Below, piece by piece: positions 9,163-59,312 of a DNA stretch of 64,000 bases. This DNA comes from Lachnospiraceae bacterium NE2001 (GTDB taxonomy: Bacteria > Bacillota > Clostridia > Lachnospirales > Lachnospiraceae). Position numbers and translations under genes: made by a program. The DNA lies in assembly GCA_900110635.1 (NCBI GenBank), contig FOEK01000004.1, forward strand, positions 1 through 64,000, in the 5' to 3' direction. The stretch's first letter is position 1. Each line of letters opens with the position of its first letter. The notes below the pieces were generated by a model. That model saw nothing but the letters and a program-made list of their open reading frames with translations. It did not search any database and was not told the origin of the DNA.

Positions 9163-10005
9163 TTAGCTATTTGCAATTCCAAATGCAATAAGGATAATAT
9201 ATCCAACGATCAAAAGGATATTCAGAACAAGTCCGATAATACCGCAAATCCATCCAGCCTTAGCCTTGCCAGAATCATTTCCAGCATTTATTGCCTGCTT
9301 ACTAAGAACCATTCCTATCGGTGCAAGGATAATTCCCAGACAACAGAAAATAAGTGAACATATAGAGCAGATAAGACCTGCTGTAGCCTTGCCGTCCTCT
9401 GGCTGAGTATTTGGCATAGTTGCCTGATAGTTGCTTCCGCCATAAGGGCTGCTTCCGTAAGAATTTCCACCATAGTTGTTAGCCGGGCCACTATAACTAT
9501 TTGTTGGACCGCCATAATTATTTGAACTTGCAGGCTGACCGTATGGATTCTGAGCACCTGCTGCTGGCTGACCATATGGATTCTGTGCGCCTGTTGTTGG
9601 CTGGCCATATGGATCTGCTGCACTTGGTGCTGGCTGGCCGTATGGATCCTGAACGCCCTGTGTTGGTTGACTATATGGATCTGCTGCACTTGGTGCTGGC
9701 TGGCCATATGGGTCTGCTGCACTTGGTGCTGGCTGGCCATATGGATCTGCTGCACTTGGTGCTGGCTGGCCATATGGATCTGCTGCACTTGGCGCCGGCT
9801 GGCCATATGGATCTGCTGCACTTGGTGCTGGCTGGCCATATGGATCTGCTGGGCTTGGTGCTGGCTGGCCATATGGGTCTGCTGGGCTTGGTGCCACAGG
9901 CTCACTAACTACTGGTTCACTAACTACTGGTTCACTTCCAGCCGGATCTCCTGCGTATGGATTAAAGCTAGGATCTCCTGAATATGGATTCATATTATCG
10001 TCCAT
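9163..10005 (-). CDS. DUF4190-domain membrane protein with a proline-rich repeat region
   Basis: 280 residues in two parts. Residues ~25-175 are low complexity, built from an 11-residue unit like PSAADPYGQPA repeated about ten times, then Gly/Asn/Tyr-rich sequence. Residues ~200-280 form a DUF4190-like domain with two hydrophobic segments (TAGLICSICSLIFCCLGIIL and AGWICGIIGLVLNILLIVG). The N-terminal region should be an extended, disordered tail facing cytoplasm. A GGAGGT site precedes the start. It follows the aquaporin gene by 17 nt. Function unknown. Several long frames on both strands across the repeat are artefacts of its periodicity. Confidence 0.8.
   Translation of the reverse strand: MDDNMNPYSGDPSFNPYAGDPAGSEPVVSEPVVSEPVAPSPADPYGQPAPSPADPYGQPAPSAADPYGQPAPSAADPYGQPAPSAADPYGQPAPSAADPYGQPAPSAADPYSQPTQGVQDPYGQPAPSAADPYGQPTTGAQNPYGQPAAGAQNPYGQPASSNNYGGPTNSYSGPANNYGGNSYGSSPYGGSNYQATMPNTQPEDGKATAGLICSICSLIFCCLGIILAPIGMVLSKQAINAGNDSGKAKAGWICGIIGLVLNILLIVGYIILIAFGIANS
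9597..9893. repeat. 33-bp tandem repeat inside the DUF4190 gene
   Basis: A 33-bp unit centred on GGATCTGCTGCACTTGGTGC recurs about nine times with few changes, encoding the 11-residue Pro/Tyr/Gln unit. High DNA identity between units suggests recent expansion and likely length variation between strains. Confidence 0.85.
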
Positions 10006-14034: not shown

Positions 14035-14144
14035 AATGTGCAACGGGGACTGACTTCCTTCGCTCACGCTCAGGCGCTAAAAACTTGTCTGCCACTGGCA
14101 GACAACGCGCCCATTGCACATAGGTCTGTCCCTTTTTGCACATT
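14035..14144 (-). repeat. 110-bp hairpin element, copy 1 (between atpA and atpG)
   Basis: Bounded by AATGTGC (14035-14041) and GCACATT (14138-14144). Inside is a stem TGTCTGCC/GGCAGACA (14086-14104). Nearly identical, in inverted orientation, to the element at 55309-55418. Its outer end supplies two bases of the atpA stop codon. Confidence 0.9.
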
Positions 14145-36680: not shown

Positions 36681-36769
36681 GAAAGACAGGGGACGGTTCT
36701 CTGTCTTGCTTTTCTCTATAACCTTCGTTCTTTCATTACTCCAAGACAGAGAACCGTCCCCTGTCTTTC
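36681..36769. repeat. 28-bp perfect inverted repeat of the GGGGACGGTTCTC family
   Basis: Arms 36681-36708 and 36742-36769 are exact reverse complements, each containing GACAGGGGACGGTTCTCTGTC split over the strand, with 33 nt between. Each arm is itself partly symmetrical (AAGACAG...CTGTCTT). It sits 15 bp upstream of the ABC ATPase start. Confidence 0.9.
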
Positions 36770-39700: not shown

Positions 39701-39723
39701 AAGACAGAGAACCGTCCCCTGTC
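39701..39723. repeat. Single copy of the GGGGACGGTTCTC family
   Basis: Contains GAGAACCGTCCCCTGTC, the same orientation as the second arm at 36742-36769. It abuts the GH120 stop codon at 39726. Confidence 0.8.
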
Positions 39724-39725
39724 AT

Positions 39726-41714
39726 TTAGGCCCAAGGGCCTGGTTTTACGTTGTCGGTACGCTTTGCTCCGTCGATGTCGGTATCGAAGACGATATCGCT
39801 GCCGTCTGGATTCTCGAAGCGCTGCTCTGGCTCGAAGGCCATACCAAGTGTATCGGTGTTGATCATTGCCAGGCCTTCTGGCAGGAAGTCACGTACGTTT
39901 GTAGAGAGCTTCCACTCACCGTCCTCTTCCTTCATATCAACGTAGATTTCGTGCTCTGTATCCTCGGTGTAGTCCTGCTCGATGTCGCAAGGCTTAGCAC
40001 CGTTGAAATATACATTTCCGCCTGTCCATACAGGAAGTGGAATGTAGTATCTGTCGCTTGGCTCACTGCCCATACCGCAGTAGCCCTCAAACTCAGCCTT
40101 CCACTGTGCCTCAGTCATATAACCTGAGTAAGGAGCAGTACCAACTGTAAAGTTGCCGTCCTCCCACTCATTATTCGAGAAGTCACCCAGCATTCCGTCG
40201 TAAGCCTTACGGAGAGGCTTCTGGACGAAGATATTGTTATAGAATCTCATATCGCCGTGAAGGATGGACATAAAGCCCACAACCTCAGTTCTGTGCGGCA
40301 CGTGATATGGGGTATAACGGGTGGACTTCATGGTCTTCGCACCGTTATCAACTCCACGTCCAACAGTTGTCAGCGCACCAGCCAGAAGGTTGTGAACAAC
40401 AGCAACGCCCTGGGTAGGAAGCTTCAGCGAACGCTCTGAAAGAAGCAGATTGTTGTCCACCAGTGTTGGGCCGTGACTTACCTCGATGAAGATATCCTCG
40501 CCAAGTCCAAGATTCTGCATATTCTCCTTACAGATCAGGTAATCATAAGGGATGTTATTGTCGTGGAACACATTCTGCGTAACACGGGTACCCTGTGCCT
40601 GCCAGTCAAGCCAAAGACCTCTGGTACAATGGTGGAAATGATTATTCCTGATTATCACATCGATGGCAGCATGCATCTTGATACCGCCAATCTCGGCGCC
40701 CGCAAGATTCTGCTTGTTATTAATATGATGAATATGGTTGTTCTCAATGATAGAGAATACACCGCCCAGGTGACCAACGATACCTGTCTGTCCGCAGTCG
40801 TGGATGTTACAGTTTCTGATGATGTGGGAACCAATGGTCTCCTTGCTCCAGCCGTCAAGCTGCGCCTGACAGATACAGTCTCTCTCGGTCTGAGTGCCGT
40901 CCTTGTATTTCCATTTCAGCCACTTATTATCATTGTCTGGCTGCAAATACTTGCCCAAGGAGATACCGCTGCACTTCGACTCATACACATCGCAGTTCTC
41001 GATGATCCAGCCCTTTGACCAGTGAGGGCCGATCATTCCCTCCTGATATGCGGTTGGCGGAGCCCACTGAGTCGCAGCCTTGCATACAGTAAATCCGTCA
41101 AATGTTATATATCCAACCCCTTCCTTCGAAGGATAGAAGCAGTTCTCGCGAACTGATATTTCAACGTTAGCATTTCTAGGATCAACGTCTTGGAAGTTTG
41201 CATAGATGACCGTGGAGTCGCCCTCCTGCTCGGTATACCAGACATATACTGTAAAATCCTTGTCCCAGGATCTGTAATTTACCTTCGGATCACGAACCTC
41301 GTCCAGACTCAGCACCTCATACATAGACTTTTCATTCAGGAATACATCACCTGTATGAGCAGTGATAAATGCCACGAACCAGTCGCCTGCCACAAGAGTA
41401 TTAAATGGGTTATAGTCACCAAAGAAGGAGTTATCCACCTTGGTCTTCCACACATGTGGCTCAACCTCTTCCCAGTCATTCATTGGCTCAGCACCGGTGA
41501 TAACAGCACCCAGAGGCTTCTCTGATCTATAGACGATACGAGAATCTTCATCGCCTGCATTCTTTGGATCCACGTATTCACGGTATACGCCCTCTGCTAC
41601 GATTACCTCATCGCCAGCCACAGCAATATCAGCAGCCTCCTGGATGGTCTTAAATGGAGACTCCTTGGAGCCATTTCCAGTTGCTTCTACTTTACAATCA
41701 ACGTAATAAGTCAT
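39726..41714 (-). CDS. GH120-type beta-xylosidase (right-handed parallel beta-helix)
   Basis: 662 residues without signal peptide, so cytosolic. Reads as a beta-helix protein closely resembling the GH120 xylosidases (Thermoanaerobacterium XylC type): GDEVIVAEGVYREYV opening, NSFFGDYNPFNT, GSHIIRNCNIHDCGQTGIVG, then GLWLDWQAQGTRV near residue 375 and FIEVSHGPTLVDNN after it. In XylC the Asp of the LDW motif is the nucleophile and the Glu of EVSHG the acid/base; both are kept. It should release xylose from short xylo-oligosaccharides taken up by the cell. No transporter or other glycosidase is adjacent. Confidence 0.85.
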   Translation of the reverse strand: MTYYVDCKVEATGNGSKESPFKTIQEAADIAVAGDEVIVAEGVYREYVDPKNAGDEDSRIVYRSEKPLGAVITGAEPMNDWEEVEPHVWKTKVDNSFFGDYNPFNTLVAGDWFVAFITAHTGDVFLNEKSMYEVLSLDEVRDPKVNYRSWDKDFTVYVWYTEQEGDSTVIYANFQDVDPRNANVEISVRENCFYPSKEGVGYITFDGFTVCKAATQWAPPTAYQEGMIGPHWSKGWIIENCDVYESKCSGISLGKYLQPDNDNKWLKWKYKDGTQTERDCICQAQLDGWSKETIGSHIIRNCNIHDCGQTGIVGHLGGVFSIIENNHIHHINNKQNLAGAEIGGIKMHAAIDVIIRNNHFHHCTRGLWLDWQAQGTRVTQNVFHDNNIPYDYLICKENMQNLGLGEDIFIEVSHGPTLVDNNLLLSERSLKLPTQGVAVVHNLLAGALTTVGRGVDNGAKTMKSTRYTPYHVPHRTEVVGFMSILHGDMRFYNNIFVQKPLRKAYDGMLGDFSNNEWEDGNFTVGTAPYSGYMTEAQWKAEFEGYCGMGSEPSDRYYIPLPVWTGGNVYFNGAKPCDIEQDYTEDTEHEIYVDMKEEDGEWKLSTNVRDFLPEGLAMINTDTLGMAFEPEQRFENPDGSDIVFDTDIDGAKRTDNVKPGPWA

Positions 41715-49199: not shown

Positions 49200-50369
49200 T
49201 TAGAATTGCAGCTTGAAGGTACTGCCTTCACCCAGCGTGCTTTCCACAGTGATGCGTCCGCCCATTCCTTCAACAATGGACTTCGAAAGCGATAGGCCGA
49301 TACCAACGCTGTTAGGATTCACTTCATTGGATGCACGGTAGAAGCGTTCGAAGATATGAGTCATGGTTTCCTCGCTCATTCCGATTCCATTATCGCTGAT
49401 ACAGATTCGGGTGAAGATAGCATTTTTCTCCACCTTAATCTCGATTCTGCCACTTTCTTTTTTATCTGTTGATTTCCGAAGCTCCTGATTCTCTGAAGCT
49501 TGTGACAAAGATTCTTCATTCTTTGCTGAATAGTCCGAAGCGTTCTTCACGATGTTGATCACCGCCTCCGTCAGCCACTGCCCATCTGCCTTCACGGTTA
49601 TATCCTCAGGACAGTCAATCATAAGGGACTGTCCCCGGGTATCCAGCAGATACTTTACGCCGCCCGCCACCTCGGATAGCATAGCTGCAACATTTACATC
49701 ACCTATATCAAATGTAATCGCGCCCGCTTCGATCCGAGCAAGCTTCAGCATGGACAGCACCATCCACTCCATGCGGTTCACCTGATTAGAGGCCTCGCCG
49801 AGAATCATTTTACGCTCATCCTCACTGCTTACCTTATCATTTACAATAAGGTCCAAGAACACATCCATAGAAGCAAGCGGAGTCTTTAATTGATGGGATA
49901 TATCCGACATCACATCCTGAAGGTACTCCTTCTCGCTCTTCTCCTTGCGGCGGCTTTCCTGAAACATATGGATCAGCTTCTCGAAATTATCATAGAATAT
50001 TCCGACACTTCCCTCCTGAAGCTCGGTGGCCTTATATTCTCTGATCTTCTGCATAGATTCCGACGCCTCAAGCTCCTCGTCCGAAAGAACCTTGCCGGAA
50101 TTATTCTTGCTGTCCTCCAGCATAGACACCATTATATCCGACGCTCCATCCAGCGATCTGTATGCCTTATCGATATACAGTTTTGTGAGGAGGAAGATAA
50201 TGACAACCATCACTATTTCTGTTACACCAATAAGTATCAAAACAGGAAGATAGCTTCTGGAAAGACTCATTCCCAGATACAGCAGCAAAGCAAAGCTTGT
50301 GACCAGGATTATCCCAGTCACAAGAAAGAACAGCTTTATAAAGTTTTTACGTTCATAGTTGCTCTTCAT
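49200..50369 (-). CDS. Sensor histidine kinase
   Basis: 389 residues. Two N-terminal membrane helices close together (FIKLFFLVTGIILVTSFALL and LPVLILIGVTEIVMVVIIFL), almost no exterior loop, a linker helix, the H box SDISHQLKTPLAS, and a catalytic domain with N box (AVINIVKNASDYS), G1 (ISDNGIGMS) and G2 (GIGLSLSKSIV). A small exterior loop suggests it senses a membrane state or a partner protein. Its start is 18 nt after the response regulator stop. Confidence 0.93.
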   Translation of the reverse strand: MKSNYERKNFIKLFFLVTGIILVTSFALLLYLGMSLSRSYLPVLILIGVTEIVMVVIIFLLTKLYIDKAYRSLDGASDIMVSMLEDSKNNSGKVLSDEELEASESMQKIREYKATELQEGSVGIFYDNFEKLIHMFQESRRKEKSEKEYLQDVMSDISHQLKTPLASMDVFLDLIVNDKVSSEDERKMILGEASNQVNRMEWMVLSMLKLARIEAGAITFDIGDVNVAAMLSEVAGGVKYLLDTRGQSLMIDCPEDITVKADGQWLTEAVINIVKNASDYSAKNEESLSQASENQELRKSTDKKESGRIEIKVEKNAIFTRICISDNGIGMSEETMTHIFERFYRASNEVNPNSVGIGLSLSKSIVEGMGGRITVESTLGEGSTFKLQF

Positions 50370-50387: not shown

Positions 50388-51146
50388 CTACTCGAGTTCA
50401 GTGTCAAAGCGGTAGCCAATGCCCTTGACCGTTTTAATATACTGGGCATCCTCCCCCAGCTTATCTCTGAGTCGTTTTATATAAACCGATAACGTATTGT
50501 CATCAAAATAAGTATTCTCAGTATCGTAGATCCTCTCAAGCAGCTGATTCCTGGTAATGACTATCCCCTTATTTCGAACAAACTCACGAAGCAGCCTTAA
50601 TTCCGCAGGGGTACAATCCACAACCAAACCATCCTTATATAGCCTGAAGCTGTCGATGTCAAAGGTATGGCCGCCAAATGCAACTACATCGGTCGAGGTA
50701 TCAGAGACATTTTGCTTTAACGCTTTCTCCTGTCGTCTTATCACAGCGGCAATTCTTGAAAGGAGCTCCTTCACTCGATATGGCTTCGTCACATAATCAT
50801 CCGCTCCCAGGTCCAGGCCGCGAACTATGTTCGACTCATCCCCTACCGCCGTGCAGAAGATCACCGGGGTATCTATTTCCTTCTCTCTCATTTCCTCCAG
50901 GAAAGAAAAACCATCCCCATCCGGCAACATCACATCCAGCAAAATAAGATCAATGTGCGAGTGGGGGCTACCCCCACTCGCACAGAGGTTCTGTCCCCTT
51001 TGCACATTTTCAGGATTGGACATTAAAAGGCTGCGGGCTTCCGACAGTGTCTTTGCGTGAATCACTTCGTAGCCCTCAGCCTTCAGTGTATATGTAGTTC
51101 CCATTGCGAGAGCGAAGTCGTCCTCAACAAGTAGTATCTTCTTCAT
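50388..51146 (-). CDS. OmpR/PhoB-type response regulator with an element inserted in its receiver domain
   Basis: 252 residues, about 20 longer than usual. Receiver: acidic pair (LVEDD), phospho-acceptor Asp at residue 71 in LILLDVMLPDGDGF, Lys in YVTKPYR; then a winged-helix DNA-binding domain (LTPAELRLLREF-like region, YIKRLRDKLGEDAQYIKTVKGIGYRF). The phospho-acceptor is normally near residue 52; the shift of 19 equals the 57-bp palindromic element (50952-51008) read in frame as residues 47-65. GAGGT precedes the ATG at 51146. Confidence 0.92.
   Translation of the reverse strand: MKKILLVEDDFALAMGTTYTLKAEGYEVIHAKTLSEARSLLMSNPENVQRGQNLCASGGSPHSHIDLILLDVMLPDGDGFSFLEEMREKEIDTPVIFCTAVGDESNIVRGLDLGADDYVTKPYRVKELLSRIAAVIRRQEKALKQNVSDTSTDVVAFGGHTFDIDSFRLYKDGLVVDCTPAELRLLREFVRNKGIVITRNQLLERIYDTENTYFDDNTLSVYIKRLRDKLGEDAQYIKTVKGIGYRFDTELE
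50952..51008 (-). repeat. 57-bp palindromic element inserted in frame in a response regulator gene
   Basis: Ends AATGTGC (50952-50958) and GCACATT (51002-51008). Contains a perfect 13-bp stem (50955-50967 with 50971-50983). Read on the minus strand, its first ~30 bases match those of the 110-bp elements (AATGTGCAAA, GGGACAGA, CCT, TGTGC in order). Length divisible by three, so the reading frame is kept. Confidence 0.85.
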
Positions 51147-55308: not shown

Positions 55309-55418
55309 AATGTGCAAAAAGGGACAGACCTATGTGCAATGGGCGCGTTGTCTGCCAGTGGCAGACAAGTTTTTAGCGCCTGAGCGTGAGCGAAGGAAGT
55401 CAGTCCCCATTGCACGTT
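55309..55418 (+). repeat. 110-bp hairpin element, copy 2 (at the symporter stop codon)
   Basis: Bounded by AATGTGC (55309-55315) and GCACGTT (55412-55418). Compared with the copy at 14035-14144 (inverted) I see only two differing bases, both near the end. Internal stem TGTCTGCC/GGCAGACA; a larger stem pairs GTGCAATGGG with CCCATTGCAC. Its end supplies part of the symporter stop codon. Confidence 0.9.
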
Positions 55419-57131: not shown

Positions 57132-57189
57132 ACGACAAGACAGGGGGACGGTTCTCCTGTCTTGGAGAACCGTCCCCCTGTCTTGTCGT
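57132..57189. repeat. 25-bp perfect hairpin of the GGGGACGGTTCTC family
   Basis: Arms 57132-57156 and 57165-57189 are exact reverse complements with an 8-nt loop; each has the GGGGGACGGTTCTC core. It directly adjoins the stop codon of the SpoIIE-type gene. A further single, diverged copy lies at 59286-59300, just upstream of the same gene's start. Confidence 0.9.
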
Positions 57190-59264: not shown

Positions 59265-59312
59265 TGTTTTCCTCATAAATCCCCAACTGGGGACGGTTCT
59301 CAATTGGTAATT

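Follow-up and report, generated by a model that had tools for sequence, protein, structure and literature searches.

The window (the whole 64,000-nucleotide stretch of NE2001 DNA that was analysed) contains an OmpR-type response regulator gene and a sensor histidine kinase ORF that is likely its partner (Table 1). The first-pass annotation had placed a 57-bp palindromic element with AATGTGC/GCACATT ends inside the regulator gene, and both the place and the sequence of this element were borne out. Read on the coding strand, from AATGTGC to GCACATT, the 57 nt make up 19 codons and leave the gene frame free of stop codons. The perfect stem measures 14 bp, not 13 bp as had been claimed. Folded as a single strand with DNA parameters, the element reached -20 kcal/mol, compared with -7.3 (sd 2.07) for shuffled sequences, and none of the 200 shuffles folded as well (z -6.14). 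Its exact borders are those suggested by the family consensus.

Table 1. Position of the regulator gene, the repeat elements and the candidate mover gene. Positions refer to the window unless prefixed with L109.
Feature	Position	Strand	Remarks
OmpR-type response regulator gene	51146..50388	-	252 aa; Response_reg PF00072 + Trans_reg_C PF00486; receiver and winged-helix output
Sensor histidine kinase ORF	49200..50369	-	directly downstream of the regulator; HisKA, HATPase_c
REP-type insert, in frame	50952..51008	-	57 bp; N-VQRGQNLCASGGSPHSH-I, residues 47-65
Hairpin half (B) of regulator element	50954..50984	.	perfect 14-bp inverted repeat
Hairpin arms of regulator element	50954-50967 / 50971-50984		3-nt loop between arms
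Long-loop REP member	14037..14142	-	106 bp; gap between 585-aa and 299-aa ORFs, directly after upstream stop codon; R1 53.1 bits, E 6.1e-14
Long-loop REP member	55311..55416	+	106 bp; against 3' end of 524-aa ORF, at stop codon; R1 53.7 bits, E 3.9e-14
RAYT gene, candidate mover	L109:1459-2205		Y1_Tnp; only uncut one of six Y1 matches
Hairpin half of element	L109:1336-1364		94 bases upstream of RAYT
Full element	L109:2208-2258		starts two bases past RAYT stop codon

The phospho-acceptor of the regulator is Asp71, numbered from the ATG, and subtraction of 19 residues gives 52. Without the insert, the two sides join as ...NPE/DLILLDV, which is the family consensus. The numbering and this join agree with the proposal that 19 residues were added before the phospho-acceptor strand, shifting the Asp from about 52 to 71. 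The receiver fold was kept in an AlphaFold2 model built from 32 aligned proteins (mean pLDDT 81.4, pTM 0.58), with alpha2 at residues 34-42 and beta3 at residues 67-71, ending in Asp71; pLDDT fell below 50 at residues 49-62. A surface loop had been considered from the outset, and the model puts the insert in a low-confidence, probably floppy loop between alpha2 and beta3, ahead of the active-site strand. Among orthologous regulators of congeneric genomes (E <= 1e-60) the element was present in 1 of 15, namely that of the nearest relative, Lachnospiraceae bacterium AC2031 (G005), so the 19 residues are not common to all orthologues. The expectation that orthologues would differ in presence and absence thus held for the 14 without the element, but the nearest relative has a different REP of its own and not an empty site.

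The repeat family and its candidate transposase

Family membership was assessed with a covariance model, R1, of 17 rows (16 distinct) from which the regulator copies of both NE2001 and AC2031 had been excluded. R1 matched the NE2001 regulator copy at 50954-51006(-) with 52.2 bits (E 1.1e-13) and the AC2031 regulator copy with 54.3 bits. At E <= 0.01 at least 147 matches were obtained in the NE2001 genome (150 of 1254 candidates scored). With the insert plus 5 flanking bases as query, a blastn search of the same genome in which 40 of 56 candidates were scored gave at least 61 matches (E <= 10), one of them the insert itself; the best four of the others showed 83-85% identity almost end to end. 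The family core is TGTGC(AA)nGGGGACAGACCT / GTGCAATGGGG..., and the core pattern had 118 exact matches in the genome while the reversed control had none. A chance palindrome is excluded by the shuffle folds, the R1 match and this core count. Judged by sequence, the family is a high-copy REP-type (REPIN/BIME-like) palindrome with more than 100 copies in the gut bacterium NE2001.

The modelled and commonest form, A-B, consists of a unit TGTGCAAAAGGGGACAGACCTA and, after it, a hairpin TGTGCAATGGGGACnGTCCCCATTGCACA. Units of about 21-22 nt occur in tandem and inverted, and elements measure 51-57 bp. Some copies have additional tandem units (L048) or the symmetric arrangement A-B-A' (L059, L045). 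The tetranucleotides GTAG/CTAC and CGTC/GACG, which as the classical tag stand at the foot of the palindrome, were counted at any position within 95 full copies and occurred in 6 and 38 of them; the same copies had on average 4.74 of six frames open, compared with 3.88 in shuffles. Many copies abut stop codons or sit shortly ahead of start codons. Two longer elements of the window, described in the first-pass annotation as 110-bp relatives of the insert in untranslated regions, measure 106 nt and align with the same model, at scores next to the 52.2 bits of the insert (Table 1). These long-loop members have 62 bases in the hairpin loop compared with 7 in R1, about 55 extra, and are otherwise the same element. 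The ORFs flanking the first are presumably atpA (585 aa) and atpG (299 aa), and the 524-aa ORF beside the second we take to be of the sodium-symporter type.

Six Y1 transposase matches were found in the NE2001 genome, five of them truncated by contig ends. The product of the uncut gene matched PF01797 with E 1.2e-11 and 45.3 bits, above the cut-off of 23, and NF047646 (REP_Tyr_transpos) with E 5.4e-14 but 52.3 bits, below the curated cut-off of 80; it is likely a divergent REP-associated tyrosine transposase (RAYT). Copies of the family flank this gene on both sides (Table 1). We searched 41 genomes of the genus with R1 at E <= 1e-6 (144 candidates scored each). At least 132 matches were obtained in NE2001 and at least 85 in AC2031, one weak match each in G022 and G033, and none in the other 37. 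The RAYT is 96% identical in AC2031, with no more than 55% identity elsewhere in the genus sample; a close RAYT is thus confined to the two of the 41 genomes that have the family in numbers. Weaker relatives of the repeat were found among 299 genomes of the taxonomic family in three other genera, with at least 11, at least 1 and at least 3 matches (19 candidates scored per listed genome).

AC2031 also has a second RAYT-like gene (G005:C1:1993637-1994404), 45% identical to the first, and no counterpart of it was found in the NE2001 genome at E 1e-20. IS200/IS605-like transposase fragments of two types lie at contig ends in L107, L108, L110, L111 and L112, and one type directly adjoins REP elements at a TTTGAT-like site (L108, L112).

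Other repeats were seen in the window. A second palindromic family with the core GGGGACGGTTC (AAGACAGGGGACGGTTCTCTGTCTT type) lies at 36681-36769 and 39701-39726, with further GGGGACGGTTC cores at 57144-57154, 57167-57177 and 59289-59299. The pattern GGGGACRGWWC gave 204 matches, and among the places listed all but three were GGGGACGGTTC; the reversed control gave 70, a number probably inflated, since the reversed pattern also fits the GGGGACGGTTC repeat. Elsewhere in the genome, near position 1490 (-) of L016, a copy of this second family lies within a 290-aa open stretch (...ELSTPK-QGQRQGTVLCP-DESTEE...) that looks to us like a metallo-beta-lactamase-fold hydrolase. At 9496-9912 of the window, about 10 or more 33-bp direct repeats form an array that is perhaps a repeat-containing coding region.

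In-frame copies in NE2001 and at the same sites in AC2031

Each of 129 distinct element clusters in NE2001 (131 minus 2 doubles) was scanned for long through-running ORFs, with ORFs and homology as the guide to coding status. Conserved genes with an internal in-frame REP numbered five, those for the regulator, DusB, CvfB, TsaD and PriA, with about 18-21 residues added in each. By this count, made by eye from ORFs and with gene-end overlaps left uncounted, 5 of the 129 clusters are internal to conserved genes and the family lies mostly outside genes. The idea that one repeat family spreads into both non-coding and coding DNA was in this way supported, and the search for other in-frame copies added four genes to the regulator. 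The inserted peptides are KCAMGTVPIAHRSVPNCT in DusB, 18 residues in CvfB, DVQKGTDLSAIGTDPVAHAVP in TsaD and NVQGGQSPLHIGASPTAH in PriA. Pfam confirmed the families of these four proteins, and for TsaD, PriA and DusB the top PDB homologues have a gap or align poorly where the insert lies. When seven congeneric genomes were aligned, all four inserts fell in length-variable loops. The loops at these sites are short in G007, G002, G023, G028 and G029. G033, which has a single weak R1 match, has lengthened non-REP loops at all five sites, and an nhmmer search of the five G033 loci at maximum sensitivity (E <= 10) brought up no decayed REPs. The long loops without REP in G033 point to loop growth independent of a recognisable REP; either the five sites are intrinsically permissive, or G033 REPs have decayed past recognition.

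Where a copy stood ahead of a plausible start codon, it was taken, by eye, as leader. An RNase J gene with an apparent N-terminal REP extension (L195/L245) was rejected for this reason, the element preceding a good ATG; L208 and further ORFs, either antisense or short, were also excluded from the in-frame count. At L052, L155, L175 and L192, and at L326 of AC2031, the element overlaps the C-terminal end of a long ORF and seems to give it a new tail and stop codon; these cases were left out of the count, so copies at coding ends are undercounted, and further copies may lie among the candidates beyond those scored.

We compared these sites with 59 distinct clusters of AC2031 (62 minus 3 doubles), drawn from 50 loci together with those of the five genes and of the RAYT and not taking in all 85 R1 matches. 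AC2031 has a REP at the matching loop in four of the five genes (regulator, CvfB, PriA and TsaD, the last with the hairpin half only). At its DusB site there are 13 residues and no R1 match was seen; TGTG...ATGGGGA...CACAT...AGGTCT is legible by eye, and the stretch may be a decayed REP copy. No other internal coding copies were recognised among the 59 clusters. The copies at the four shared sites are unlike. The regulator insert encodes VQEGQTSVQGGPSPLH in AC2031 as against the NE2001 residues of Table 1, the borders differ between the species in all four genes, AC2031 is without some residues beside the element, and the PriA copies lie at about the same place in opposite orientations.

The two genomes also differ in their prevailing subtype. 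The CCTnnGTG junction is AT in 64 of 95 full copies of NE2001 and in none of 55 of AC2031, which has mostly TG (25) and CG (17). Among 32 element pairs at matching places, some of them placed by a single flank (e.g. o43/g2, o70/g1), 14 are old-type (TG, CG or AG in NE2001), 9 are AT-type and 9 are neither. Element identity, gaps ignored, was 0.90-1.00 for old-type (n=14) and 0.73-0.90 for AT-type pairs (n=9), and flank identity was likewise higher at old-type pairs (p = 0.011, the 9 other pairs left out), a comparison that is partly circular because the class is read from the element itself. One AT-type pair (0.91) and one old-type pair (0.77) go against the flank trend. TG and CG made up 12 of the 27 NE2001 junctions at matched sites and none of about 100 at unmatched ones (one AT junction, L017/L048, being counted twice), where unmatched means without a partner among the AC2031 clusters examined. 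Opposite orientations were also found in the intergenic pairs o7/g24 and o55/g5 and, on one flank each, in o65/g15, o24/g39 and o43/g2. The pair o81/g45 and, by eye, o28/g27 have borders and orientation in common and differ in subtype.

Loci L109, L167, L178, L200 and L201 and their AC2031 partners, which carry the RAYT and old-type REPs, are about 0.88-0.96 identical in DNA; for comparison, identity is 0.78-0.85 beside 8 of the 9 AT-type pairs. This pattern suggests introgression, uneven conservation or contamination. The estimated contamination of the NE2001 assembly is 3.23%, so foreign contigs, and not introgression, could account for the old-type segments of high identity.

Proposed origin and turnover of the coding copies

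We propose, with a probability of roughly 0.85, that the regulator insert is a REP copy that was spread by its cognate RAYT and kept as a tolerated loop, and that coding and intergenic copies of the family turn over. The palindrome would spread by single-stranded transposition with the cognate RAYT (TnpA_REP). Expansion of the family would predate the split of NE2001 and AC2031, and a few permissive coding loops would have been entered, among them the alpha2-beta3 loop of the response regulator. This insert would have been retained as a stop-free stretch, a multiple of three in length, in a flexible loop at an already length-variable site, and the same would apply to DusB, CvfB, TsaD and PriA, while selection presumably purged most other coding insertions. 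After the split many shared sites, coding ones included, would take on the current REP type of each lineage by replacement or rewriting, and such turnover toward the current type would leave sister species with different REPs at the same coding loops. Family membership, copy number, the RAYT gene with its flanking copies, the in-frame and loop positions and the shared sites with unlike sequences are observed; movement of the element by this RAYT, near-neutrality of the insert, and the occurrence and manner of turnover are what we infer. Renewed insertion into the same permissive loops, conversion among copies, and drift after a symmetric A-B-A' element had lost opposite arms would each agree with the data. 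Gene conversion among REPs was reportedly proposed by Higgins et al. in 1988.

Coding sites held in common favour old shared sites, and unlike borders favour new insertions. Only tentatively do we consider the coding REPs to have been rewritten in place after an ancestral insertion, whether by conversion or by the RAYT repeatedly carrying sequence from one palindrome to another, a reading we put at below even odds. Independent insertion into the same permissive loops in each lineage, the loops being hot spots with no ancestral insertion, is possible to a similar degree. The unlike borders in the regulator, CvfB, PriA and TsaD, the residues missing beside the AC2031 elements, the opposite PriA orientations and the long non-REP loops of G033 at all five places argue for it. 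Against it, all four recognised internal coding copies among the 59 AC2031 clusters lie in the five genes of NE2001, an overlap that chance would hardly produce in a genome of some thousands of genes, and the intergenic pairs o81/g45 and, by eye, o28/g27 have common borders and orientation despite unlike subtypes.

That the insert has been co-opted, its loop or mRNA hairpin tuning phosphorylation, dimerisation, translation speed or message stability of the regulator, we regard as unlikely. The hairpin is very stable (DNA parameters), the loop stands directly ahead of the phospho-acceptor strand and a REP occupies it in both species; yet the encoded residues differ between the species, the model gives the loop very low, disorder-like confidence, the same family lies in four unrelated genes, and the insert is absent from 14 of 15 congeneric orthologues. 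Ordinary drift in loop length with a coincidental palindrome can practically be discarded. The alpha2-beta3 loop does vary, with 30 to 50 residues from the ALAMG motif to beta3 across the family (53 of 56 loci readable, some loci being one record twice). However, the other 23 longest loops listed contain palindromes of at most 6 bp as against the perfect 14 bp of the regulator insert, none of the shuffles folded as well, and the 52-bit match to R1, a model independent of this copy, was counted as already refuting drift. A palindromic element of the Rickettsia RPE-1 type without RAYT kinship is very improbable, even though the outcome, palindromic repeats in frame in unrelated genes, is the same (PMC10969869). 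The NE2001 elements flank a RAYT-like gene, the family in numbers keeps company with a close RAYT in the same two genomes, and the units, which like those of BIME/REPIN are tandem and inverted, measure about 21-22 nt and not the roughly 150 bp given in descriptions of RPE-1.

The likeness to Rickettsia palindromic elements drawn in the first-pass annotation holds in that both occur in coding and non-coding DNA and give in-frame peptides tolerated in unrelated genes (PMC10969869). RPE-1 differs in length from the 51-57-bp element of NE2001, which has a RAYT gene, and the consulted portion of that source names no transposase for it. The RAYT-associated REP is the nearer known kind because the genome has an element-flanked tyrosine transposase gene; RPE-4 and RPE-6 of Rickettsia have themselves been classed as CGTC REPs (PMC3733652). 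With RAYT-associated REP, REPIN and BIME families the NE2001 repeat shares short palindromic units in tandem and inverted, more than 100 copies that lie nearly all outside genes and often near their ends, a Y1 tyrosine transposase gene with copies on both sides, and co-occurrence with a close RAYT. Unlike them it has no demonstrated GTAG/CGTC tag, its RAYT scores below the NCBIfam cut-off and its host is a member of the Lachnospiraceae; REPINs are two inverted REP units that form one long hairpin and move as a unit, and the symmetric A-B-A' copies may be of this kind, yet the A-B form is commonest. RAYTs of three REPtrons are described as cutting single-stranded REP DNA in vitro (PMC8266576). 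MITEs of the IS200/IS605 type share a related Y1 transposase fold and hairpin ends, but the IS200/IS605-like fragments in NE2001 begin with other sequence.

REPs wholly within ORFs and in frame, of the GTAG and CGTC types, have been reported in several species (Di Nocera et al. 2013, PMC3733652). According to that report, more than half are dimers or groups encoding 20-30 residues, many lie in replication and repair genes, and recB of X. campestris and X. oryzae has different REPs at about one site. In-frame REPs in genes are thus already published; what appears to be new here is the proposed lineage-specific turnover of REPs at fixed coding sites. Compared with the cases of Di Nocera et al., four of the five coding sites are filled in both NE2001 and AC2031 with unlike copies, one of them inverted, and the genes are those for a response regulator, DusB, CvfB, TsaD and PriA. 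We found no precedent in the open-licence literature for this gene set, for a Lachnospiraceae family without a demonstrated tag or for REP versions that are peculiar to each lineage at four coding sites common to both.

Proteins can gain loops from in-frame mobile repeats, and one repeat family, a sister species and a RAYT gene together make a small closed system in which loop gain may be dated and tested. With species pairs such as NE2001 and AC2031, an insertion shared by both could be told apart from repeated insertion and from conversion. Should coding REPs indeed be rewritten in place, the turnover of repeats would be a mutational force on essential proteins, and a selfish non-coding repeat would continually edit them, orientation flips included, while the position of the loop stays fixed.
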